From NCBI RefSeq assembly GCF_024679245.1, contig NC_090176.1, forward strand, positions 19,351,793 through 19,415,792: DNA of 64,000 bases, written 5' to 3'. The DNA comes from Pseudorasbora parva (taxonomy: Eukaryota > Chordata > Actinopteri > Cypriniformes > Gobionidae). The notes below the pieces were generated by a model. The model was given only the letters and a program-made list of their open reading frames with translations. It was not told where the DNA came from and ran no database searches. Shown piece after piece: positions 1,479 through 44,138 of this stretch; within the stretch, counting starts at the first letter, position 1, and each line of letters begins with the position of its first letter. Both the position numbers and the translations under genes were made by a program.

Positions 1479-3190
1479 CACATGATCAGTGTTGCCACAG
1501 TTACTTTGAAAAAGTAATCTGATTACTGATTACTGATTACTCCTTTAAAAAGTAACTTAGTTACTTTACAGATTACTTGATTTTAAAAGTAACTAAGTTA
1601 GATTACAAGTTACTTTATTAGTTACATTCAGCAGTTGCCGACAACACCGCTGCCGCCTCAAAATAGAAATGACAACCGTTTTTGGCAACACACTTTATTG
1701 TATTTATGCCCGAGACTGACGGTCCCGACTTTTTTACGCCCCCTTTTTTAGGCTTCTCCTTCGTTTTATATTTATTTTAATAATTAAAATGAACAATGAG
1801 ATGTGCTGGTGGAAACAACATGAGACCATGATAGCTTGCGCCACTGTCAAGATATGGCTCGCGCAGGGTTAAAGAGTCCGTATCTTCAGCACAGCTGCTA
1901 GAGTTATGGCCTTTTTACAACTGGTTCCTTCATTCGTTTTCTCTGACCAGGTATCTATCTGATTGCGAAATGACCAGGAGTGGGCCTAAATGCCTTCCGA
2001 GAGTCTTTCCAGACGTATTTAATTCCGATCACTCAAACAAACCAATTCAGAAGGTGCATGAAAGCATTTCAAACTAAACCGGACAAATGTAAATATATCT
2101 GGTTGTTTAAACCACATGTGTAAATTTTACTCCTGGCAAATAATTAAAAAATAAATGTGTGAGAGCGTGTTATGTTGTAGTCAGATAGATATGACGGTGC
2201 AACTGCAACACCGCTGCAGATGAGTAAAGCAAGCCAACGCATATGGCCGTAAATGAAACTTTAAAATAAGTCACACAAAACACAATCATCTTTAATATAA
2301 AATAATGAGACTAATGATCTTACCAGTGCTTAGGTCGCTCTCTCTCTCATATTGTGATCATTGAATTTAAAATGAGCTGCTGAATAAAATGCTGGAATCT
2401 TTTGCTTTGATGTGAACTCCGTTAAATGAGCATACCGCGGGAATTGAAGATCGGATTTATATTAATTTTGCTGAAGTGTAAGGTAGGCTATAAGACAACC
2501 TGCCTGTACTTTTTTTTTTTGTTTGTTTAGATTGTGTAGCCCGTTTCGGGTTTTTTGAGCACCGTTGCGAGCATGTTGTGAGCAGTAGGCTAATCTATCA
2601 GCTGCCTCAGCTCGTCAGAAATGCCTTTGTGGTGGTATAATAACTAGCCTACTTTGTTTTTAATGTCAAAGTAGTTATATTTCGTTTCGTTTATTTTTTA
2701 AGTTCATTTAGAAAAATGTTTGGAGCAATTTTTGTTTGTTAAATTAAAGTTTTAATTTTTTTATGTGACGACCCAGTGAGTTAACCGCATGTTTAATAGC
2801 CTAGTCTCTCAAACCAACTCTTGAATTGTCTTGCCTATATAAACTTTAATTTAACAAACAAAATTAGGATAATAAAAAACGAAACGAAAAATAACTACTT
2901 TGACATTAAAAACAAAACTGAACTATTTTAATGGCTGCAACAATGTAAAAAATAAAATAAATAAATAAAAAACACGGCTCCAGCCCTCGGGCTGAGAACT
3001 TTGATAAGCTGTCGGTTTTTACAAAGGAAAATGACTAAAATAGTAACTCACAGTGACTTGGATAAGTAACTTTAATCTGATTACTGGTTTGGAAATAGTA
3101 ACGCGTTAGATTACTCGTTACTGGAAAAAAGTAGTCAGATTAGAGTAACGCGTTACTATGTAACGCGTTACTGGCATCACTGCACATGAT
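1479..3190 (+). mobile_element. hAT-type non-autonomous transposon, copy 1, with perfect 8-bp TSD
   Basis: The element itself is 1487-3182 (1,696 bp). It begins cagtgttgccacag and ends ggcatcactg, so both termini read CAGTGnTGCCA from the outside. It is flanked by a perfect 8-bp direct repeat, cacatgat, at 1479-1486 and 3183-3190. An 8-bp target duplication with CAG..-type termini is the hallmark of the hAT superfamily. Subterminal regions are rich in overlapping gtaacgcgttac and agtaatcagatt motifs. No transposase frame is present, so it depends on a transposase elsewhere. A second copy lies in the opposite orientation at 39354-41050. hAT assignment is strong; the specific family is not named. 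Confidence 0.93.
2653..2926. repeat. Internal ~90-bp inverted repeat inside hAT copy 1
   Basis: Left arm 2653-2752 carries taatgtcaaagtagttat, ttcgtttcgttt and tttgtttgttaaattaaagt. The right arm, 2841-2926, is its reverse complement around an ~88-bp loop. The right arm lacks about 24 bases (the tttagaaaaatgtt..gagca part) that both arms have in the other copy of this element, so it has suffered an internal deletion. The palindrome may be a MITE that jumped into the ancestral hAT or an intrinsic hairpin of the family. Confidence 0.8.

Positions 3191-30085: not shown

Positions 30086-30088
<3 letters not shown>
26916..30088. other. Intronic sequence, no gene; scattered repeat debris
   Basis: AT-rich to about 27400. 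A segment with tgttcacac and tcggaattt-type words lies at 28018-28560, and one with gccaggtgcacacggtgcgat at 28613-28900; both look like old cyprinid DNA repeats without paired ends. A GA-rich tract at 29101-29135 and A runs explain the 125-codon minus-strand frame at 28764-29141. Nothing else is supported. Confidence 0.35.

Positions 30089-30146
<58 letters not shown>
30089..30146. repeat. (CA)n at the left edge of the large inverted element
   Basis: About 29 CA dinucleotides directly left of the first 'gaggggac' motif. A second CA tract reading in the same direction lies at the right edge (44109-44138). Confidence 0.95.
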
Positions 30147-30149
<3 letters not shown>

Positions 30150-30153
<4 letters not shown>

Positions 30154-30450
30154 CTATATTACCAAGAGGGGACTATCACTCTACACTATCCAAGAGGGGA
30201 CCTGTGTTTCTAGTCATTTTGAAGAAACAAAAATCACATACAAAATTTTCTTTTAAGGTCCTTATTCATAATATAACTTCAAATAAGCATTTTTTTATTT
30301 TTTTAAAAATATGCCAAGAGGGGACCTGAACGATGTCTACCTATCCAACAGGGGACCTCCATAGACTCTAATGGAGCTGTGTGTGTTTGTGTGTGACCGA
30401 TGTCTACCTATCCAACAGGGGACCTCCATTAGTCTGCAGTGGAGCTGTGT
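30150..30450 (+). repeat. Left outer motif block of the large inverted element
   Basis: Five copies of (C/A)CAA(G/C)AGGGGAC within 300 bp: near 30162, 30190, 30313, 30343 and 30413. The last two lie in a ~73-bp direct repeat, gatgtctacctatccaacag.., each followed by ctcca and a tggagctgtgtgtg stretch. Motif orientation here is opposite to that in the adjacent satellite array. Confidence 0.85.
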
Positions 30451-31049
30451 GTGAATGTGAAGTGAGCTGGCAGTCAAGTCTGTCTTCATTTTATATATAT
30501 ATATATATGCATTTGGCATATATATATGCCATCTCCACCATTACATGTCTTTACAAATAAATAACATAAATGCAGTTAAGCTTCGTACAGACTATATAAT
30601 GTGTCAAGTAATAATATGTCTTTTTATAATAACTGTGTTCTTTTGAATGTACTGAGAAGTATTTATTTGTAACCTAAAATATACTTTAATACTTTAATTT
30701 ATTTTTAAATATATTTATTACACAGTCGCAATAAAGTTACAAGATGTAACATCAAGTACCACACTACACTTAGTTAGTCCACAAGTCTTCTTGTGCTTTA
30801 GTATGTTAGTCAACACATTAAAATAAGTTAACTTGTTTACACAGGCATCTGGTATCACAATAGGCACACACACACACACACACAAACACAATATACCTTA
30901 GACATAATACCTAATACATTACAGAAAAGTCATTTCTTTAAGAAATTCATTCTCTGTTGTGTCTTCATAATTACAGTATATGATCAGTCCACATCTCTCA
31001 TTTAAGATTATTGTCAGGTACACCAATGTATTTACATTATTGAATATTA
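30451..31049. other. Unique AT-rich spacer between outer block and left array
   Basis: Contains a short (TA)n palindrome at 30490-30535 (atatatgcatttggcatatat) and a CA tract at 30864-30884. I found no mirrored counterpart on the right side (43099-43720), so the large element is not symmetric here. Confidence 0.5.
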
Positions 31050-34000
31050 CAGGTCATTATTGAATAGTGATTACGTTACACACACACTGACTCAGGTCCC
31101 CTGTTAGATAGTAAATCACGACGCCTGTGTGTTTGCTGTGACATTTCTTATCATCACAAACACACTGTAAAGATTTAGAGTTTTTACAGCAATACCTGAG
31201 TTTAAAGGGTTAAATCAAGCAGAAATAGCTCTCTAATGTATTAATTGCAGGTCATTATTGAATAGTGAATATGTTACACACACACACACACACACACACA
31301 CTCAGGTCCCCTGTTAGATAGTAAATCACGACACTTGTGTGTTTGCTGTGACATTTCTTATCATCACAAACACACTGTAAAGATTTAGAGTTTTTACAGC
31401 AATACCTGAGTTTAAAGGGTTAAATCAAGCAGAAATAGCTCTCTAATGTATTAATTGCCGGTCATTATTGAATAGTGATTATGTTACACACACACACTGA
31501 CTCAGGTCCCCTGTTAGATAGTAAATCATGACGCCTGTGTGTTTGCTGTGACATTTCTTATCATCACAAACACACTGCAAAGATTTAGAGTTTTTACAGC
31601 AATACCTGAGCTTAAAGGGTTAAATCAAGCAGAGATAGCTCTCTAATGTATTAATTGCAGGTAATTATTGAATAGTGACTACGTTACACACACACTGACT
31701 CAGGTCCCCTGTTAGATAGTAAATCACGACGCCTGTGTGTTTGCTGTGACATTTCTTGCTGTCATAAACACACTGCAAAGATTTAGAGTTTTTACAGCAA
31801 TACCTGAGTTTAAAGAGTTAAATCAAGCAGAGATAGCTCTCTAATGTATTCATGGCAGGTCATTTTTGAATAGTGATTGTTACACACACACTGACTCAGG
31901 TCCCCTGTTAGATAGTAAATCACGACGCCTGTGTGTTTGCTGTGACATTTCTTATAATCACAAACACACTGCAAAGATTTAGAGTTTTTACAGCAATACC
32001 TGAGTTTAAAGGGTTAAATCAAGCAGAAATAGCTCTCTAATGTATTAATTGCCGGTCATTATTGAATAGTGATTATGTTACACACACACTCACTCAGGTC
32101 CCCTGTTAGATAGTAAATCACGACACCTGTGTGTTTGCTGTGACATTTCTTATCATCACAAACACACTGTAAAGATTTAGAGTTTTTACAGCAATACCTG
32201 AGTTTAAAGGGTTAAATCAAGCAGAAATAGCTCTCTAATGTATTAATTGCAGGTCATTATTGAATAGTGATTATGTTACACACACACACTGACTCAGGTC
32301 CCCTGTTAGATAGTAAATCACGACACCTGTGTGTTTGCTGTGACATTTCTTATCATCACAAACACACTGTAAAGATTTAGAGTTTTTACAGCAATACCTG
32401 AGTTTAAAGGGTTAAATCAAGCAGAAATAGCTCTCTAATGTATTAATTGCAGGTCATTATTGAATAGTGATTATGTTACACACACACACTGACTCAGGTC
32501 CCCTGTTAGATAGTAAATCACGACGCCTGTGTGTTTGCTGTGACATTTCTTATCATCACAAACACACTGCAAAGATTTAGAGTTTTTACAGCAATAACTA
32601 AGTTTAACGGGTTAAATCAAGCAGAAATAGCTCTCTAATGTATTAATTGCCGGTCATTATTGAATAGTGAATATGTTACACACACACTCACTCAGGTCCC
32701 CTGTTAGATAGTAAATCACGACGCCTGTGTGTTTGCTGTGACATTTCTTATCATCACAAACACACTGTAAAGATTTAGAGTTTTTACAGCAATACCTGAG
32801 TTTAAAGGGTTAAATCAAGCAGAAATAGCTCTCTAATGTATTAAATGCAGGTCATTATTGAATAGTGATTACGTTACACACACACTCACTCAGGTCCCCT
32901 GTTAGATAGTAAATCACGACGCCTGTGTGTTTGCTGTGACATTTCTTATCATCACAAACACACTGCAAAGATTTAGAGGTTTTACAGCAATACCTGAGTT
33001 TAAAGGGTTAAATCAAGCAGAAATAGCTCTCTAATGTATTAAATGCAGGTCATTATTGAATAGTGATTACGTTACACACACACTCACTCAGGTCCCCTGT
33101 TAGATAGTAAATCACGACGCCTGTGTGTTTGCTGTGACATTTCTTATCATCACAAACACACTGCAAAGATTTAGAGTTTTTACAGCAATACCTGAGTTTA
33201 AAGAGTTAAATCAAGCAGAGATAGCTCTCTAATGTATTCATGGCAGGTCATTTTTGAATAGTGATTGTTACACACACACTGACTCAGGTCCCCTGTTAGA
33301 TAGTAAATCACGACGCCTGTGTGTTTGCTGTGACATTTCTTATAATCACAAACACACTGCAAAGATTTAGAGTTTTTACAGCAATACCTGAGTTTAAAGG
33401 GTTAAATCAAGCAGAAATAGCTCTCTAATGTATTAATTGCAGGTCATTATTGAATAGTGATTATGTTACACACACACACTGACTCAGGTCCCCTGTTAGA
33501 TAGTAAATCACGACACCTGTGTGTTTGCTGTGACATTTCTTATCATCACAAACACACTGTAAAGATTTAGAGTTTTTACAGCAATACCTGGGTTTAAAGG
33601 GTTAAATCAAGCAGAAATAGCTCTCTAATGTATTAATTGCAGGTCATTATTGAATAGTGATTACGTTGCACACACACTGACTCAGGTCCCCTGTTAGATA
33701 GTAAATCACGACGCCTGTGTGTTTGCTGTGACATTTCTTATCATCACAAACACACTGTAAAGATTTAGAGTTTTTACAGCAATACCTGAGTTTAAAGGGT
33801 TAAATCAAGCAGAAATAGCTCTCTAATGTATTAATTGCAGGTCATTATTGAATAGAGACTACGTTACACACACACTGACTCAGGTCCCCTGTTAGATAGT
33901 AAATCACGACGCCTGTGTGTTTGCTGTGACATTTCTTATCATCACAAACACACTGTAAAGATTTAGAGTTTTTACAGCAATAACTAAGTTTAACGGGTTA

Positions 34001-34912
34001 AATCAAGCAGAAATAGCTCTCTAATGTATTAATTGCCGGTCATTATTGAATAGTGAATATGTTACACACACACTCACTCAGGTCCCCTGTTAGATAGTAA
34101 ATCACGACGCCTGTGTGTTTGCTGTGACATTTCTTATCATCACAAACACACTGTAAAGATTTAGAGTTTTTACAGCAATAACTGAGTTTAAAGGGTTAAA
34201 TCAAGCAGAAATAGCTCTCTAATGTATTAAATGCAGGTCATTATTGAATAGTGATTACGTTACACACACACTGACTCAGGTCCCCTGTTAGATAGTAAAT
34301 CACGACGCCTGTGTGTTTGCTGTGACATTTCTTATCATCACAAACACACTGTAAAGATTTAGAGTTTTTACAGCAATAACTGAGTTTAAAGGGTTAAATC
34401 AAGCAGAAATAGCTCTCTAATGTATTAATTGCAGGTCATTATTGAATAGTGATTACGTTACACACACACTCACTCAGGTCCCCTGTTAGATAGTAAATCA
34501 CGACGCCTGTGTGTTTGCTGTGACATTTCTTATCATCATAAACACACTGCAAAGATTTAGAGTTTTTACAGCAATAACTGAGTTTAAAGGGTTAAATCAA
34601 GCAGAAATAGCTCTCTAATGTATTAAATGCAGGTCATTATTGAATAGTGACTACGTTACACACACACACTGACTCAGGTCCCCTGTTAGATAGTAAATCA
34701 CGACGCCTGTGTGTTTGCTGTGACATTTCTTATCATCATAAACACACTGCAAAGATTTAGAGTTTTTACAGCAATAACTGAGTTTAAAGGGTTAAATCAA
34801 GCAGAAATAGCTCTCTAATGTATTAAATGCAGGTCATTATTGAATAGTGACTACGTTACACACACACACTGACTCAGGTCCCCTGTTAGATAGTAAATCA
34901 CGACGCCTGTGT
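31050..34912 (-). repeat. Left satellite array: 19 full units of ~198 bp
   Basis: The word caggtcccctgttagata starts at 31093, 31303, 31503, 31701, 31897, 32095, 32295, 32495, 32693, 32891, 33089, 33285, 33485, 33683, 33881, 34079, 34277, 34475, 34675 and 34875. Spacing is 196-200 bp except the first (210, longer CA run). Each unit holds the AGGGGACCTG motif, a short (CA)n, gctgtgacatttctta, tttagagtttttacagcaat and gttaaatcaagcag. Units are nearly identical, indicating recent amplification or homogenisation. A seven-unit higher-order period is visible. The array ends abruptly at tgtgtgtttctctcctcaac. Confidence 0.97.
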
Positions 34913-35340
34913 GTTTCTCTCCTCAACCCCCACAACCCCCCACTCACAATTTACATTTCAATAAGGGACACTTGAAAAACCAGTTTGTGAACCACAGGCC
35001 AATAGAGCTCAATATACCAATGTGGCAGAACCCTTCTCAAATAAACTAGAGAAGATGCTGGGATTTGCCCTGCCAAATTAAACTAAATTACATTTTTTAC
35101 AATCGCTAGGCCACGTTTCTCAATACTTTGGTCATTTTCAAAATCCTTCACACAGTTCTCTAAACCAACTTTCTGCTTCACATCAGTTATTTCACATTCA
35201 AAATCCACAAAAACCAACAAAACACTTCATTCATGTCTCAAATCAAGTGCCATTGATCCACAGTTTAGCTTGCACAGACTGAAGTTGTGATCACTGTGTG
35301 AAGAGTTGAAAAAGTTGAAAAAGTGTGTTTATTATTGAGA
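34913..35340 (+). repeat. Left inner arm of the large inverted element
   Basis: Starts ctctcctcaacccccacaac and includes acttgaaaaaccagtttgtg, atgctgggatttgccctgcc, tgtctcaaatcaagtgccat and tgatcactgtgtgaag. The reverse complement is at 41275-41660 with only scattered changes, both arms beginning immediately after the satellite. No open frame of note. Confidence 0.92.
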
Positions 35341-35884
35341 AATGTTTTGTAAAAGAACATTTTATATCACAGCTTAACTGTGGATCGACATTGCTTTAGC
35401 AAAAAATGCATTCAATGGCAACATCTTTCAATTTACCTGAAATCTTTTCTCACTTTGACACAAACACAATCAAATCTTTGTTCTACAGGCTAATTCGCAC
35501 ATCCTTACATGCTGTTTTCAAAAGTGTTAAACTTATGGACAAAACAATAACATAATACAAAACTGAATGAGACAGCAATTTACAACATGTATACATTAAT
35601 ACTGTAATGCAATTTATACTGCTAAAAAAATCAAACACTATCAAAGCAACTTTGATGAAACTGAACACCAACACAAGTGTTAGTCCATTACCATCCATTC
35701 AAAACAGGAAACTTAGGAATAATGTTGTACTGTAATGTAAGTATGCAGTGAATTATAAGCAGTAGAGAGTGTCATTCTAGTTTTGTAAAGACATTTTAAT
35801 TGTATAATGTTCCTGATGTTAGTGTTGATGTAAACCTGCGCTGCTAGTGCTCTGGAAGAATGAGTTGATTTGTAAAAGTAAAAT
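35341..35884. other. Unique AT-rich interior, nothing recognised
   Basis: Contains cttaactgtggatcgacattg, a weak echo of the tccacagtttagc text in the arm, in inverse orientation. No coding potential. Confidence 0.35.
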
Positions 35885-36125
35885 TAACTGCTGTGAAGCT
35901 GAAAGTTGGTTAGCAAATTTATAAACTCCTCACTCAGTTCTCCTAAATATTGGGAAATACGTCCTAGCGATTGTAATTTCATTTCATCATGTAATTTCAA
36001 TTTATTTTTGGCAGTGTATTTGGTCTCGGACACAGGTAACAGTAGTGAGCTTCTTTGTATCACCTGTGAGAGTCTTCATGCATTGAAATGTAAATTACTG
36101 GTGGGGGGTTGAGCAGCAACACACA
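35885..36125 (-). repeat. Older, diverged copy of the inner arm (right-arm orientation)
   Basis: Shares in order with 41390-41660: gaagc.gaaagttggtt, attg.gaaat..g.cctagcgattgtaa, ttggcag, and attgaaatgtaaa..tggtggggggttg. Much more diverged than the two main arms, and followed by a short CA tract but no satellite unit. Confidence 0.7.
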
Positions 36126-36309
36126 CACTATTCTCTATTCCAATTTCAAGAGCACATCTAAACCACTAGCCCAAACACATTACAAGTGAAAGCACAAATA
36201 AATACAAAAGATATGATACACATGAAATAAACAGTGCTTTTCAGGACGGTCTGTCAGTAGTTGTAATATAACAGTGTATTGTCCTCACTGTAAAAAAAAA
36301 AAAATAATA

Positions 36310-36350
<41 letters not shown>

Positions 36351-36788
36351 TAAGTTAATAATTTTAAAGTTACTTTTTCTCAAAGTTTATGTTCACTTAA
36401 CTGAACCTACTATGACATAAGCAACTATGTTTACTGGGATACTTCCTATTTTTTTAAAAATAATTTTGTATTAATTTTAGCATTTTAGTTTAGCATTCGT
36501 GGACTGTCAGAGATACAGCTTTTGGGGCGTGTGCTTTAGGTGTTCACCCATATAGCACGTGAATAATGAAGAGCCTTCTGAAGCAAAGTGGCACGTTTGT
36601 GTAAGAACAATGTCCATATTTTAAACTTTATAGACTAAACAAACTATTTTTATTGAAAGAAATTGTGTTTTAGTGTTATTATGAAAAGAGTAACCCCTGA
36701 CGCTAAGTTTTGTTTAGCTCTATCTTCTCTCTTCTGCGTTTGTCAGTGCACATACGTCAAGGATTCATGGGTGAAGAAGGGTTACTCT
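36126..36788. other. Unique interior, low complexity at 36290-36345
   Basis: A/T runs and (TA)n at 36290-36348, otherwise no recognised feature. Confidence 0.4.
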
Positions 36789-37460
36789 TTAAAGTACAAC
36801 TCCGGTGAGAAATGACCCTCGGGGTAATTAACAGACGGTGGTTACCGAGTAGATCGTTCTCTGGGATGCGTTTTCATGGAAATCAAGTGTAAAGAGTTTT
36901 ATCTCTAAAAACAGATTTGAGTGACGAACGCTGTGCTAAGTGATGAACTGTGACTTGGAATTTCATATGGGCCGTTGTTTCCGGAAGAAAGCACTGAACG
37001 CAGTAGAGAAAAAAAAAGAAAAAAAAGTCCATGTAATTAGATTTCACAAACTTAATTCCTATCGATCAGCTCACTTAGCACAACGTTCGTGGCTCGAGTC
37101 GTCGAGACTGTTTTCCAAGATGGCTGCAGTCTGTAAACGTGTAATGTACTGTCTTTAGAAAGTATCTTCTTATTAAACCGTTGTACTCTAACAAGTTCTC
37201 AATGCTGCGGTTTGCATGTAGGGATCCTCATTATGCTGCCTTGTTAGTGTGAGGCTATTTTGAGCCTTGTTAGTGGTATTAACTAGCGATTTAATTTCAC
37301 TTATTCCATGCCCCATAGACAAACATTATAAGCTAATCTGTGTTTAGAGATAAAACTCTTTAAATTCGATTTTCATGACACCGCATCCCAGAGAACGATC
37401 TACTCGATAACCATCTGTTAATTACCCCTAGGGTCATTTCTCACCGGAGTTGTCCTTTAA
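36789..37460. mobile_element. TTAA-target foldback element with ~130-bp terminal inverted repeats
   Basis: TTAA at 36789-36792 and 37457-37460. From the left, aagtacaactccggtgagaaatgaccct..ggggtaattaacag, then gagtagatcgttctctgggatgcg and aaagagttttatctctaaa. The inverted right end repeats all blocks in order with few changes. The interior has ccaagatggctgcagtctg, the only CpG-containing promoter-like stretch here. No transposase; mobilised in trans. Confidence 0.9.
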
Positions 37461-37744
37461 GCGCAATGTGATTCGTGTGGCACTGAAAACAGAAAGCTAG
37501 TATTTTAGTCTATGGATCAGTTACTGTGTGGATCAGTTATATGATGGTTAGATGCACTTTTATGGACCGACAAGGCAGTGGCATTTTAAAGCTGGGAAGA
37601 GCCAGGACTTTTTTAATATAAATTTAAATAACTCAGATTTTATTCATTTGAAAAAAGAATGTCATATACACTTGGGATGACTTGAGGGTGAGTAAATCAT
37701 GGGCTAATTTTCATTTGTAGGTGAACTAACTGCTGTAAACTGGG

Positions 37745-37822
37745 CCCACAAACACAGATCCACACAACCCCCCCACACAATTTACATTTTAATAATAATA
37801 AATAAGGGAAGACTTGAAAACC
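37745..37822 (+). repeat. Older, diverged copy of the inner arm (left-arm orientation), split by a hAT
   Basis: ccacacaacccccccacacaatttacatttt..aataagggaagacttgaaaa parallels 34925-34982. It resumes after the hAT at 39077-39110 as aaacccagtttgtgaaccaaaggcc, parallel to 34980-35003. The extra aataataata in the middle is a small expansion. Confidence 0.78.
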
Positions 37823-39076
37823 TAGGGCCCTATAATTTCCGCGATCACGGAATCGCGGACGGAATCGCGGAATTGGCATATTAACGCGGAATCTGCATAT
37901 TAACGCGGAATCTGGTGTTAACGCAGATTTCCCCGGAATTTTACATATTTGTAATGAAATTCTGTGTCGTGTGGGTGGAGAACGTATGTCTGAGGAAAGT
38001 GCAGACCGGGGGAAGCAAATCTTCGCGACACAACCCCTCCCGTCATTTCAGCTCGCCCTTCAAAACAATGAAAGTATGGCGAAGTTGGTCTCCACGGCTC
38101 TGCTTTCGGCAGCGAAAAAGTTAAGAAACTCGACGCTAACGGCGGTTTCACACTGCACGCGCAGGCGGCGCAGAAGCTTTGCGAATGGAGAGCGGGAGCC
38201 GCGCTCGTGTATTGCACAGACAGACAAATATTGTCCATTCTGTCAGATTTTCCGGTGTTCTGCTCGACCCCTGTCATCTCGTGCTTTGATTTATAATGTG
38301 CACATTAGGCAGCAATGCATATCTGCTGCAAATGCGACCGTTTTCCCCTCTGTTAGTCTGTTCCAAACATGCATTTAACATGCTCTATATGGGTAGTTTA
38401 CATGATAAGTAACCTTAAAGTTAAAATTAAGCATCTAGTTTTAATCATTTAAAGGGGCCTTTGAAGTTGGGGAAAAAAACTTCAGGCAGTGTTGTGTTTT
38501 CGTGTATTTTTATTTTTCACAGCTCTGGATATCATTATGGTGATTGTTAAACACACAGAACAATTCACTACATGATTTCATGGTGCAATGTTTTTTTTTA
38601 TGTTAATTTTCAAATTTAAATGTTTTACTTAATAGTACTTAAGAGTACTGTAAAATATGATTCTTATGATTTTTTTTTTTTAGTTCTTTTTAAAAAAAAT
38701 TACTTGAAAGAAAAAGCTAATGGAGCACTTTCATTTTAACTTATATAAACTATTATAATTTATTTTACCGGAAAGTTTAAAGCTAATAACCATTAATATT
38801 TGAAGTATTTGAAGTGCAGTGTTATGTCAAATATCATATTTGTCCTAAAAAGTAAATGTGATGTTTGTTACCTCGATAAATTTAAGGTCATTCCTATTTT
38901 TTGTTTTATGTTGTATTATATTAACATTAAAAGCAAACTCTTTTTTCACCAAAATTACAGTAAAGGGTAAAAAAACTGAATTACCAAACATTTTAACGGA
39001 AAAAAAGGAATCTGCAAAAATTAAAACGGAAAAAACGGAATTTGGGAAAAAATAAAACGGATTTTATAGGGCCCTA
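37823..39076. mobile_element. hAT-like element (TAGGGCCCTATAA termini), 1.25 kb
   Basis: Starts tagggccctataatttccgc and ends ggattttatagggcccta; inverted ends share TAGGGCCCTATAA plus ccg words. Subtermini carry tandem aacgcggaatctg and aaaacggaa units. Comparison with the arm copy at 34975 shows the empty site was ..ttgaaaaacccagtttg, so a duplicated aaaacc lies on each side; the precise 8-bp repeat is blurred by mutation. The CG-rich interior (37960-38230) has overlapping frames on both strands with no domain. Confidence 0.82.
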
Positions 39077-39110
39077 AAAACCCAGTTTGTGAACCAAAGG
39101 CCAACCTAGA

Positions 39111-39345
39111 GGAAAGGAAAATCAAACCTGAGATCTCCTTCTCAACTCACATTTTTCTCCTAGACAGAAATGAGATCAAGTGAACATCAAATTGAGACAT
39201 AAGGCTAAGTCTCCTGCTTCTCACATGTTTATCCTCAGACAAAAAATGACATTCTCTCATGTTTATCTCCACTAAAGTTTCATAAGAGATCTCAACAACA
39301 TCACATACTATGCTCTGATTTGTCTCCTTGGCTAGAGAGACTGTA
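39111..39345. repeat. Degenerate ~95-bp tandem repeat, first part
   Basis: tctccactaaagtttcataagagatctcaacaacatcacata..tgctc is one unit; further units occur across the hAT insertion at 41060-41250. Upstream to 39111 similar but poorer units can be glimpsed (cctgagatctccttctcaac). Origin unknown. Confidence 0.6.
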
Positions 39346-41058
39346 TTGCTCATCAGTGATGCCAGTAACGCGTTACATAGTAACGCGTTACTCTAATCTG
39401 ACTACTTTTTTCCAGTAACGAGTAATCTAACGCGTTACTATTTCCAAACCAGTAATCAGATTAAAGTTACTTATCCAAGTCACTGTGAGTTACTATTTTA
39501 GTAATTTTCCATAGTTAAAAACGACAGCTTATCAAAGTTCTCAGCCCGGGGGCTGGAGTGTTTTTTATTTATTTATTTTACTTTTTACATTGTTGCAGCC
39601 ATTAAAATAGTTCAGTTTTGTTTTTAATGTCAAAGTAGTTATTTTTCGTTTCGTTTTTTTATTATCCTAATTTAGAAAATGTTCAGAGCAATTTTTTGTT
39701 TGTTAAATTAAAGTTTATATAGGCAAGACAATTCAAGAGTTGGATTGAGAGACTAGGCTATTAAACATGCGGTTAACTCACTGGGACATAAAAAAATTAA
39801 AACTTTAATTTAACAAACAAAATTTGCTCTAAACATTTTTCTAAATGAACTTAAAAAATAAACGAAACGAAATATAACTACTTTGACATTAAAAAACAAA
39901 GTAGGCTAGTTATTATACCACCACAAAGGCATTTTTGACGAGCTGAGGCAGGCTGATAGATTAGCCTACTGCTCGCAACGGCGCTCAAAAAAACCGAAAC
40001 GGGCTACACAATCTAAACAAACAAAAAAAAGTACATGCAGGTTGTCTTATAGCCTACCTTACACTTCAGCAAAATTAATATAAATCCGATCTTCAATTCC
40101 CGCGGTATAGCCTATGCTCATTTAACGGAGTTCACATCAAAGCAAAAGATTCTAGCATTTTATTCAGCAGCTCATTTCAAATTCAAAGATCGCAATATGA
40201 GAGAGAGCGACCTAAGTACTGGTAAGATCATTAGTCTCATTATTTTATATTGAAGATGATTGTGTTTTGTCTGACTTATTTTAAAGTTTCATTTACGGCC
40301 ATATGCGTTGGCTTGCTTTACTCATTTGCAGCGATGTTGCAGTAGCACCATCATATCTATCTGACTACACCATAACACGCTCTCACACATTTATTTTTTA
40401 ATTATTTGCCAGGAGTAAAATTTACACATGTGGTTTAAACAACCAGATATATTTACATTTGTCCGGTTTCGTCTGAAATGCTTTCATACACCGTCTTAAT
40501 TGGTTTGTTTGAGTGATCGGAATTAAATACGTCTCGAAAGACTCTCGGAAGGCATTTAGGCCTACTCCTGGTCATTTCGCAATCAGATAGATACCTGTTT
40601 AGAGAAAATGAATGAAGGAACCAGTTGTAAAAAGGCCATAACTCTAGCAGCTGCACTGAAGAAACGGACTCTGCGCAAGCCATATCTTGACAGTGGCGCA
40701 AGCTATCATGGTCTCATGTTGTTTCCACCAGCACATCTCATTGTTCATTTTAATTATTAAAATAAATATAAAAAGAAGGAGAAGCCTAAAAAAGGGGGCG
40801 TAAAAAAGTCGGGGCCGTCAGTCTCGGGCATAAATGCAATAAAGTGTGTTGCCAAAAACGGTTGTCATTTCTATTTTGAGACGGCAGGGGTGTTGTCGGC
40901 AACTGCTGAATGTAACTAATAAAGTAACTTGTAATCTAACTTAGTTACTTTTAAAATCAAGTAATCTGTAAAGTAACTAAGTTACTTTTTAAAGGAGTAA
41001 TCAGTAATCAGTAATCAGATTACTTTTTCAAAGTAACTGTGGCAACACTGTTGCTCAT
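39346..41058 (-). mobile_element. hAT-type non-autonomous transposon, copy 2 (inverted), perfect 8-bp TSD
   Basis: The element is 39354-41050 (1,697 bp), flanked by ttgctcat at 39346-39353 and 41051-41058. It starts cagtgatgccagtaacgcg and ends gtggcaacactg, the reverse complement of the copy at 1487-3182, with near-identical sequence throughout. The internal palindrome is complete here (arms about 39600-39712 and 39795-39905). It sits inside the degenerate tandem repeat. An 82-codon minus-strand frame at 40453-40701 has no recognised domain and is not conserved as an open frame in the other copy. Confidence 0.94.
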
Positions 41059-41274
41059 ATGTGTCTCCTCTAAAGTTTCAGAAGGGATCTCAACAGTATC
41101 GCATGCTGTGCTCAGACTTTTTTCTTCAGCTAGATACTCTGGAACTCTCACTTTTGTCACCTCTAAAAAGTTTCATAAAAGATCTCAATAACATCACACA
41201 CTGTGCTCAGAATATTCTCCTTAGTCAAAGTCTCTGGCACTCTCAAATTTGTCAAACAAATGTTGGTCACTTTT
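41059..41274. repeat. Degenerate ~95-bp tandem repeat, remainder
   Basis: Two further units: ctcctctaaagtttcagaagggatctcaacagtatcgcatgctgtgctcag.. and cacctctaaaaagtttcataaaagatctcaataacatcacacactgtgctcag... Period about 95 bp. Together with 39270-39345 they show the array existed before the hAT arrived. Confidence 0.75.
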
Positions 41275-41660
41275 TCAAAACTCTTCACAGAGTGATCACA
41301 ACTTCAGTCTGTGCAAGCTAAACTGTGGATCAATGGCACTTGATTTGAGACATGAATTAAGTGTTTTGTTAGTTTTTGTGGATTTTGAATGTGAAATAAC
41401 TGATGTGAAGCAGAAAGTTGGTTTGGAGAACAAGTTTTGAAAATGACCAAAGTATTGAGAAATGTGGCCTAGCGATTGTAAAAACTGTAATTTAGTTTAA
41501 TTTGGCAGGGCAAATCCCAGCATCTTCTCTAGTTTATTTGAGAAGGGTTCTGCCACATTGGTATATTGAGCTCTATTGGCCTGTGGTTCACAAACTGGTT
41601 TTTCAAGTCTTCCCTTATTGAAATGTAAAATGTGAGTGGGGGGTTGTGGGGGTTGAGGAG
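41275..41660 (-). repeat. Right inner arm of the large inverted element
   Basis: Reverse complement of 34913-35340: gagtgatcacaacttcagtc, tgatttgagacatgaat, gcagggcaaatcccagcatc, cacaaactggtttttcaag, ggggttgtgggggttgagg. It leads straight into the right satellite array at the same base as the left arm does. Confidence 0.92.
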
Positions 41661-43098
41661 AGAAACACACAGGCGTCGTGATTTACTATCTAACAGGGGA
41701 CCTGAGTCAGTGTGTGTGTGTAACGTAGTCACTATTCAATAATGACCTGCATTTAATACATTAGAGAGCTATTTCTGCTTGATTTAACCCTTTAAACTCA
41801 GTTATTGCTGTAAAAACTCTAAATCTTTGCAGTGTGTTTATGATGATAAGAAATGTCACAGCAAACACACAGGCGTCGTGATTTACTATCTAACAGGGGA
41901 CCTGAGTGAGTGTGTGTGTAACGTAATCACTATTCAATAATGACCTGCAATTAATACATTAGAGAGCTATTTCTGCTTGATTTAACCCTTTAAACTCAGT
42001 TATTGCTGTAAAAACTCTAAATCTTTACAGTGTGTTTGTGATGATAAGAAATGTCACAGCAAACACACAGGCGTCGTGATTTACTATCTAACAGGGGACC
42101 TGAGTGAGTGTGTGTGTAACATAATCACTATTCAATAATGACCTGCAATTAATACATTAGAGAGCTATTTCTGCTTGATTTAACCCTTTAAACTCAGGTA
42201 TTGCTGTAAAAACTCTAAATCTTTGCAGTGTGTTTGTGATGATAAGAAATGTCACAGCAAACACACAGGCGTCGTGATTTACTATCTAACAGGGGACCTG
42301 AGTCAGTGTGTGTGTGTATTGTAATCACTATTCAATAATGACCTGCAATTAATACATTAGAGAGCTATTTCTGCTTGATTTAACCCTTTAAGCTCAGGTA
42401 TTGCTGTAAAAACTCTAAATCTTTGCAGTGTGTTTGTGATGATAAGAAATGTCACAGCAAACACACAGGCGTCGTGATTTACTATCTAACAGGGGACCTG
42501 AGTCAGTGTGTGTGTAACATATTCACTATTCAATAATGACCTGCAATTAATACATTAGAGAGCTATTTCTGCTTGATTTAACCCTTTAAACTCAGGTATT
42601 GCAGTAAAAACTCTAAATCTTTGCAGTGTGTTTATGATGATAAGAAATGTCACAGCAAACACACAGGCGTCGTGATTTACTATCTAACAGGGGACCTGAG
42701 TCAGTGTGTGTGTAACATATTCACTATTCAATAATGACCGGCAATTAATACATTAGAGAGCTATTTCTGCTTGATTTAACCCTTTAAACTCAGGTATTGC
42801 TGTAAAAACTCTAAATCTTTGCAGTGTGTTTATGATGATAAGAAATGTCACAGCAAACACACAGGCGCCGTGATTTACTATCTAACAGGGGACCTGAGTG
42901 AGTGTGTGTGTAACGTAATCACTATTCAATAATGACCTGCAATTAATACATTAGAGAGCTATTTCTGCTTGATTTAACCCTTTAAACTCAGGTATTGCTG
43001 TAAAAACTCTAAATCTTTACAGTGTGTTTGTGATGATAAGAAATGTCACAGCAAACACACAGGCGTCGTGATTTACTATCTAACAGGGGACCTGAGTC
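41661..43098 (+). repeat. Right satellite array: 7 full units of ~198 bp, inverted
   Basis: caggggacctga starts at 41694, 41894, 42092, 42290, 42490, 42688, 42886 and 43084, spacing 198-200. Sequence is the reverse complement of the left array at very high similarity. It ends after a partial unit at cctgagtcattttgtt. Confidence 0.97.
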
Positions 43099-43719
43099 AT
43101 TTTGTTAAACATAAATAAATCAAAAGTGGTTAGTTTAAAAAGCTCATAAATGTATAAGGTGGTAAGATGGGCCTTTTTTATGGGCCAAAAGTCACACATT
43201 ATTTTTACAAATACTTGGCTAAAATAAAATGTTTTTAATAATGTCTATGTTAACACTTGTTTAAAAGAACTTTAGATGCAAAGTTTGTCCAATTTACCGT
43301 ACCTTTTTTTTTATATAAATAAAATAATGCATTATTTTTCAATAATTATAGGCCACTGTCATTAAAATGTTATATATATATATACACAGAAAAAAAATGT
43401 TTACAAAAGCATTGAATGAGATCCCTTAATAATTTAATAAAGTTTTACGGTCTCTCCACGGCCATGATGGATGGTATTTACTATATTTATTTGTAGAAAC
43501 TGAGGACACACACATTTTGATGGCAGATGTATTTCTAATTACATCCTGGTTGTTTAGATTTTTTAATCGTTTTTTCTTGGATCCTGTAGTATTTAATTTT
43601 AATGTAATGCAAAGTTTGAAACTAGTCAGGGTATTTAGTAAAGAGATATAATCTATATGATGTTTGTTCCTTTAGTAAGCAGCCTGTTAAACAGCAGCTC
43701 TAGAGTCAGAGGACAGCAG
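43099..43719. other. Unique AT-rich spacer right of the array
   Basis: No mirrored counterpart on the left. Small (TA)n at 43371-43384. No gene seen. Confidence 0.4.
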
Positions 43720-44104
43720 GCCATTCAAACAATGGAGGAGTGTGTGTGTGTGTGAACGACGTGTGTTTAAGGGCTATTCCAGTTCCTGCTCCAGCCTACA
43801 GGGGAGCTGCTGAGCATGGCCTTAAACACTCACACACTCTTAGGTCCCCTCTTGGTCAAAATTTTTAAAAATTCACCAGAGTGTTGTTTCTTGATTTTAA
43901 CATTATTTAAACACACACACCTGTAGGTCCTTACTTGGTCAAACATTTAAAAAATCACCAGAGCATTTCTTTAGTTTTTTACTTCATTTTCACATGATTT
44001 AATGCATGACCAACAGGGGACTTGAAAAATGTCCCCTCTTGGCTCAGAGGTCCCCTGTTGGTGAGTGTGTAACGACGCCAAGGTCCCCTGTTAGATAGGT
44101 AGAC

Positions 44105-44108
<4 letters not shown>
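43720..44108 (-). repeat. Right outer motif block of the large inverted element
   Basis: Motif copies near 43846 (aggtcccctcttgg), 43925 (aggtccttacttgg), 44010 (ccaacaggggactt), 44030 (gtcccctcttggc), 44050 (aggtcccctgttgg) and 44083 (aggtcccctgttagatagg). The final one is followed by tagacaagta at the CA tract. Two blocks at 43850-43970 are direct repeats sharing tcaaa..ttt.aaaaa.tcaccagag. Confidence 0.82.

Positions 44109-44138
<30 letters not shown>
44109..44138. repeat. (CA)n at the right edge of the large inverted element
   Basis: About 15 CA units on the plus strand, same direction as the CA tract at the left edge. Confidence 0.95.

Follow-up and report, generated by a model that had tools for sequence, protein, structure and literature searches.

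Giant satellite-bearing DNA elements inserted in one orientation in the CA repeats of Pseudorasbora parva

Of the mobile elements described so far, those whose behaviour appears nearest to that of the element reported here are the CryptonV elements, some families of which are said in the excerpted account of PMC8869645 to insert specifically into microsatellites. Cryptons have no terminal inverted repeats (TIRs), and tyrosine recombinases typically act on two inverted arms of 11-13 bp placed around 6-8 bp, as outlined in extracts of PMC3212892. Among other systems, the Dada transposons of fish are summarised as sequence-specific DNA transposons that insert in one direction per family and have subterminal inverted repeats and no TIRs (PMC3706591), and the Ac-mMITE elements of pineapple are introduced as DNA elements with a dinucleotide repeat on both sides (PMC8449440). 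Here we describe an element at positions 30147-44109 of a 64,000-nucleotide stretch of the Pseudorasbora parva genome (C5:19351793-19415792, hereafter the window), together with its relatives in the 1.23 Gb of genome searched. The results support, in outline, a non-autonomous DNA element that targets microsatellites and that stands out for its size, its satellite content and the strand rule of its insertion.

Insertion into a microsatellite is the first likeness to CryptonV, since all 60 ends of the giant element that were read lie in (CA)n. The CryptonV mechanism, as far as the extracts of PMC8869645 and PMC3212892 describe it, would also give direct CA flanks, a fixed polarity and no target duplication. 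Cryptons produce no target duplication other than short direct repeats at their ends, and in the giant none was seen outside the CA tract (9 of 9 copies). Cryptons encode a tyrosine recombinase, and none was found in 8 of the 10 longer frames of the window copy or inside 66 paired copies on C1-C11, although a non-autonomous derivative would lack one. The giant size, the satellites and the inverted motif arrays go unmentioned in the excerpted CryptonV descriptions.

Helitrons start with 5'-TC, stop with CTRR-3' and carry a hairpin at the 3' end, whereas the giant begins TACACG and ends AAGTA, and the Helitron end features were not seen (the hairpin was judged by eye only). The target duplication of hAT elements is 8 bp long, and such a duplication does not fit the one copy of the giant on which the comparison rests (left side L013, right side L073). 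On that same single copy, the 8-bp duplication given for Zisupton (Zisupton/KDZ) in the extract of PMC12730594 does not fit either. Dada elements are reported to target multicopy RNA genes with duplications of 6-7 bp (PMC3706591); the giant, in contrast, targets (CA)n and none of these duplications fits. Ac-mMITE elements, according to the part of PMC8449440 that describes them, are the size of miniature inverted-repeat transposable elements (MITEs), lie in (TA)n, are Mutator-like and have 9/10-bp duplications outside the repeats. The oyster Helentron, as abstracted in PMC7492417, resembles the giant as a mobile carrier of short satellite arrays. No description of the giant family was found in the literature searched, Repbase and Dfam lying outside that search.

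A young element family in CA repeats

The window holds one copy of a young family of mobile DNA elements of roughly 14 kb. Read from left to right, the copy consists of a CA tract, a left outer block, an array of a 198-bp satellite, an inner arm and a core with nested transposons, followed by an inverted arm, an inverted satellite array, a right outer block and a CA tract. Patterns drawn from the two ends had 186 (left) and 202 (right) matches in the genome at up to 2 mismatches, and the reversed patterns, used as controls for both ends, had none. Positions were listed for the first 100 matches of each end search, all of them exact, and pairing covers C1-C11, with C11 up to 30.5 Mb. Within the range covered by both lists, 66 of the 88 left ends have a correctly oriented right end within 45 kb, and the spans of these 66 pairs run from 8.8 to 33 kb with a median of 13.9 kb. 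Unpaired were 22 left ends and 34 of the 100 right ends; wrong-orientation combinations within 45 kb numbered 2. The original prediction, made from the letters of the window, had proposed that full copies be compared for shared outer boundaries, and such boundaries were found in dozens of copies. Median pairwise identity was 99.0% among 30 left blocks and 99.1% among 30 right blocks, the blocks read being the best matches and hence from those copies that are youngest or best preserved.

One copy, at C8:24956814, was compared with that of the window. It is identical over 2451 bp of the left stretch (100%), 99.85% identical over 3428 bp of the arm stretch and 99.9% identical in the right outer block, in a comparison that excludes window positions 36841 to about 41600. 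The flanks of the two copies differ, and similarity starts on the left and stops on the right within the CA tract. Given a near-identical copy with different flanks, the family has recently transposed; spread by segmental duplication was considered and rejected, because the flanks of near-identical copies differ.

The ends read (30 left and 30 right, from 51 copies including that of the window) all lie directly at (CA)n units, and their polarity is uniform: at 60 of 60 ends, CA is on the strand that reads the element from left to right. That both edges of the window copy fall in a CA tract had been noticed; the cause, which the original prediction did not foresee, is that all copies read occupy CA repeats, and in a single orientation. 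The tracts measure 1-83 units on the left and 2-67 units on the right, with at least 9 units in 29 of the 30 left tracts and at least 11 units in 28 of the 30 right tracts. Target duplications, which had also been proposed as a check, were absent outside the CA tract in all 9 copies with both sides read. In one additional copy the left tract is interrupted at its edge (...CACATCCA, L013) and the right tract is pure CA (L073); on this one copy, a duplication could be no longer than about 2-3 bp, unless the interruption of the tract arose later.

Architecture and contents of the window copy

The features of the window copy are as follows, in window coordinates.

30088..30146, + strand: left CA tract, with CA on the + strand (Tandem Repeats Finder); the same in 30 of 30 left ends read
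30147..31045, + strand: left outer block, beginning TACACGTCTATATTACCAAGA-GGGGAC, with five inward-facing motif matches
31046..34916, + strand: left 198-bp satellite array of 19.4 copies, with 20 motif matches in the direction opposite to that of the left outer block
34917..35315, + strand: left inner arm, the outer portion of an imperfectly palindromic unit reaching to near 36118 (far inverted edge read by eye)
36789..37460, no strand given: probable nested element, delimited by an inverted repeat of 129 bp
37823..39076, no strand given: probable nested element lying in a second arm-like copy, its ends being TAGGGCCCTATAA...TTATAGGGCCCTA (sequence and junctions read)
39354..41050, no strand given: nested element with ends CAGTGATGCC...GGCAACACTG, shown by an 8-bp duplication TTGCTCAT and by an empty site in a 33-kb copy of the giant
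41269..41660, - strand: right inner arm, an inverted copy of 34917-35315
41663..43105, - strand: right satellite array, in inverse orientation to the left array, with 8 motif matches
43106..44109, + strand: right outer block, ending AGGTCCCCTGTTAGATAGGTAGACAAGTA, with six motif matches in both directions
44110..44138, + strand: right CA tract (Tandem Repeats Finder); 30 of 30 right ends read, that of the window included, are followed by CA

Tandem Repeats Finder placed the 198-bp arrays at 31046-34916 and 41663-43097 (7.2 copies), the latter extended to 43105 by an inverted-repeat search, and the CA tracts at 30088-30151 and 44109-44138. Satellite and arm, the latter about 0.4 kb long, form a single inverted unit, with 33474-35315 matching the reverse of 43105-41269 at 96.9% over 1847 bp; the mirrored arrays and arms of the original prediction are thus real. 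So is the switch from satellite to arm at the identical base on the left and right sides. The same junction was present in all 8 arm loci read (that of the window and 7 others, the best 8 of 40 scored matches), and isolated arms without a common boundary, the outcome named in advance as contrary to the prediction, were not seen among these best matches. The mirror image does not extend to the outer blocks: 30147-31045 and 43106-44109 are different sequences, and one 48-bp stretch at 87.5% and the end motif are all that was seen in common between them.

That motif, the 14-bp YYAASAGGGGACCT, has 39 matches inside the element and 1 elsewhere in the window at up to 2 mismatches; when the bases of the element were shuffled 20 times, each shuffled copy had 0-2. 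The matches are divided among the left block (5), left array (20), right array (8) and right block (6), with 0 in the core. Over 18 bp, the satellite consensus is the same as the right end (AGGTCCCCTGTTAGATAG), and on the left and right of the giant alike 21 bp separate the CA edge from the motif core GGGGAC.

It had been stated that no protein is left in the element. This holds in so far as the 8 frames scanned, of the 10 stop-to-stop frames of at least 80 aa that overlap the element, had no Pfam match; the longest of the ten, 180 aa, lies within a nested element. The copy of 33 kb, at C2:9474646-9508042, holds an open frame of 628 aa whose relatives match Transposase_21/DUF4218, and was tried as an autonomous version of the giant. 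It was rejected, since the additional 17.5 kb belongs to a distinct element, nested at the position equivalent to 36216 of the window, with its own ends (CCCAGCTAG...CTAGCTGGG), its own arrays and an apparent 2-bp GA duplication, and the window copy has the uninserted sequence. The original prediction had proposed a search for a copy with a transposase between the arms; the one gene inside the 33-kb copy belongs to the nested element. Among named relatives of this transposase, the best is an Onychostoma macrolepis protein with 94% identity across half of the query.

The nested element itself (C2:9479089-9496614, L069-L071) is EnSpm-like, its transposase-like frame is uninterrupted, and its arrays have units of 220 bp near the left end and 133 bp near the right, making it a second large, array-bearing transposon in this genome. 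Two further close copies of its gene, at C2:52621712 (100%) and C5:10814184 (99%, interrupted), are separated by 335 kb and 978 kb from the closest exact end listed for their contigs. Elsewhere in the window, 1487-3182 is a related copy (93.6%, 1.7 kb) of the nested element at 39354-41050, which is hAT-like by the length of its 8-bp duplication.

Short repeats with similar ends

The flanks of the giants hold short repeats that also have CA on both sides. Of 13 such segments, six measure 276-298 bp; the others are partial, and one (L028) arose by chance. They resemble the giant in the CA on both sides, in the single polarity and in a GGGGAC 20-23 bp inside the ends, but the giant has it at 21 bp at both ends whereas several ends of the short repeats have variant cores. 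Within 70 bp of 128 CA tracts outside the giants, an inward GGGGAC was found 16 times, 15 of them at 20-23 bp, where 0.03 matches are expected per offset. Six of the 16 are repeats of one tandem array (L033); without it, the count at 20-23 bp is 9 of 10. In this array, on the left flank of the copy at C2:6136635, several GGTCCCCTGTTGGATAGGTAGACATCGGT units, each followed by CA, lie in reverse orientation just outside the left end of the giant.

One subfamily of the short repeats was followed through the genome. The pattern with CACACA at its side gave 964 forward and 465 reverse raw matches (1,429), in which a forward site can appear up to 3 times, once for each register, such that distinct sites number roughly at least 790, some of them in tandem arrays. 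The pattern with TGTGTG at its side gave 1 match, itself with CACG beside the end. Based on its end sequences, the giant can be placed in a wider group that would share the end grammar (CA)n, about 21 bp, GGGGAC, and we infer that short repeats and giant are moved by the same enzyme. Given their abundance, the short repeats may already be catalogued in Repbase or Dfam. At C1:721426-725605, an end of a short CA-bounded repeat recurs in a tandem series, mostly at a spacing of about 125-165 bp, and it looks as if the short repeat, too, seeds satellites.

How the element may move

The explanation that we favour, tentatively and at somewhat less than an even chance, is a non-autonomous element moved in trans by a putative strand-specific, CA-targeting recombinase, perhaps CryptonV-like. 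The recombinase would recognise GGGGAC at a distance of 21 bp, or about two helical turns, inward of each end and would exchange the CA core of a circular intermediate with CA repeats elsewhere. The junction of the circle would be TAGACAAGTA-(CA)n-TACACGTCTA, that is, two imperfect inverted arms flanking a CA spacer (8 of the 10 positions of the predicted arms match), and this would be the layout of a tyrosine-recombinase site. Exchange of CA cores would result in a fixed strand polarity and a missing duplication; conversely, fixed polarity without visible duplication argues for such an exchange between circle and target, of the kind that a tyrosine recombinase performs. More speculatively, the satellites and inverted arrays could be amplified versions of the same motif that draw in or cluster the recombinase. 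The original prediction of a giant non-autonomous DNA transposon with amplified transposase-binding sites agrees with an element that is mobile, has no recognisable coding content and repeats a motif in its outer blocks and satellites and not in its core; the binding role of the motif is putative, as is the class of enzyme. A broader claim, which is plausible but doubtful, is that of an undescribed fish mobile system: a GGGGAC-reading recombinase that would enter CA repeats only, in one strand direction, with units of about 0.28 to about 14 kb and with the recognition site of the giants made into inverted satellite arrays.

Several points weigh against the favoured explanation. No recombinase gene was found in the family: none of the 61 Phage_integrase matches on C1-C11 (58 of them within the paired stretch; 149 of 410 integrase candidates were scored) lies inside the 66 pairs, and neither does DUF3504 on C1-C11 (3 representatives of 6 rows). 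The pairs searched were those of C1-C11, with unpaired copies and C12-C25 outside that set. Arms of 10 bp with 8 matches can equally be read as short TIRs of a DDE element, and CACTA/EnSpm elements, like other DDE elements, usually have arrays of motifs close to their ends. The tracts on both sides are longer and more even than random splitting suggests, and CA tracts change in length so fast that the point of insertion is unreadable. The limit on duplication hangs on a single copy and on its interruption being original; a CA duplication within a CA tract would be invisible, so a 2-5-bp duplication of the EnSpm/CACTA type is not readable here. Polarity is less telling if the CA belongs to the element itself. 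As to the short repeats, the GGGGAC matches are copies of a few subfamilies, which makes the spacing rule looser than the count implies; several ends carry AGGGAC, GAGGAC or CAGGAC in place of GGGGAC; and near the same tracts there are 11 outward-facing GTCCCC, of which 6 lie at 21 bp and the other 5 at 32-58 bp.

Open frames of the integrase family recur on several contigs, with lengths of 241, 357-358 and about 709 aa. Some of these may be the partner enzyme of the giants; others may be DIRS-like.

The first alternative, plausible but somewhat less likely, is a non-autonomous DDE derivative, EnSpm/CACTA-like or of another superfamily, whose transposase would bind the repeated motif and pick CA repeats in a fixed orientation, as Dada does with RNA genes. 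Multiple subterminal motifs in both directions are a general feature of EnSpm/CACTA elements, and the giant has motif clusters in both directions near its ends. It shares with them a large size, and the same genome has an EnSpm-like element of 17.5 kb, with CCCAGCTAG ends, in which arrays lie inside both ends. As far as the extracts go, Dada is a DDE element with sequence-specific targets and one direction per family (PMC3706591), and Mutator-like MITEs of pineapple favour (TA)n (PMC8449440). However, the giant ends TACACG...AAGTA are not the 5'-CA..TG-3' that most CMCT elements have according to the excerpt of PMC12730594. CA stands on the same strand on both sides, the CA-repeat target and its polarity set the giant apart from EnSpm/CACTA, no transposase was found in it, and copy L013/L073 fits no duplication of 6-8 bp. 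A symmetric DDE complex would, moreover, use both orientations of (CA)n, whereas the ends read show one. None of the 14 Transposase_21 matches on C1-C11 (8 in the paired stretch) lies inside the 66 pairs, a silence that means little because the same search missed the known nested 628-aa gene.

Improbable is a spread without any enzyme, in which circles produced by recombination between flanking CA tracts would reintegrate by homology into other CA tracts. It accounts for the fixed CA polarity, the lack of duplication and the CA on both sides, and the tracts at both ends do exceed the lengths suggested by random splitting; yet it predicts any sequence between CA tracts rather than recurrent ends with GGGGAC at 20-23 bp, and it leaves the motif arrays unexplained. 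Duplication of a satellite block without transposition, whether inverted (the other option of the original prediction) or segmental, would suit the large mirrored arrays but is highly improbable, failing to explain almost identical copies whose flanks are unrelated, ends that are fixed across dozens of sites and the CA-strand rule.

Among the simple repeats of vertebrates, CA is very common. Entry into CA repeats in one direction would amount to a natural safe-harbour targeting of large DNA without visible duplication, which is wanted in genome engineering, and the shared spacing of the ends offers a direct handle for finding the enzyme. For the family itself, the giant points to a possible route by which a dispersed satellite is born: a subterminal, motif-bearing unit would be amplified inside a mobile element and carried with it to many places.

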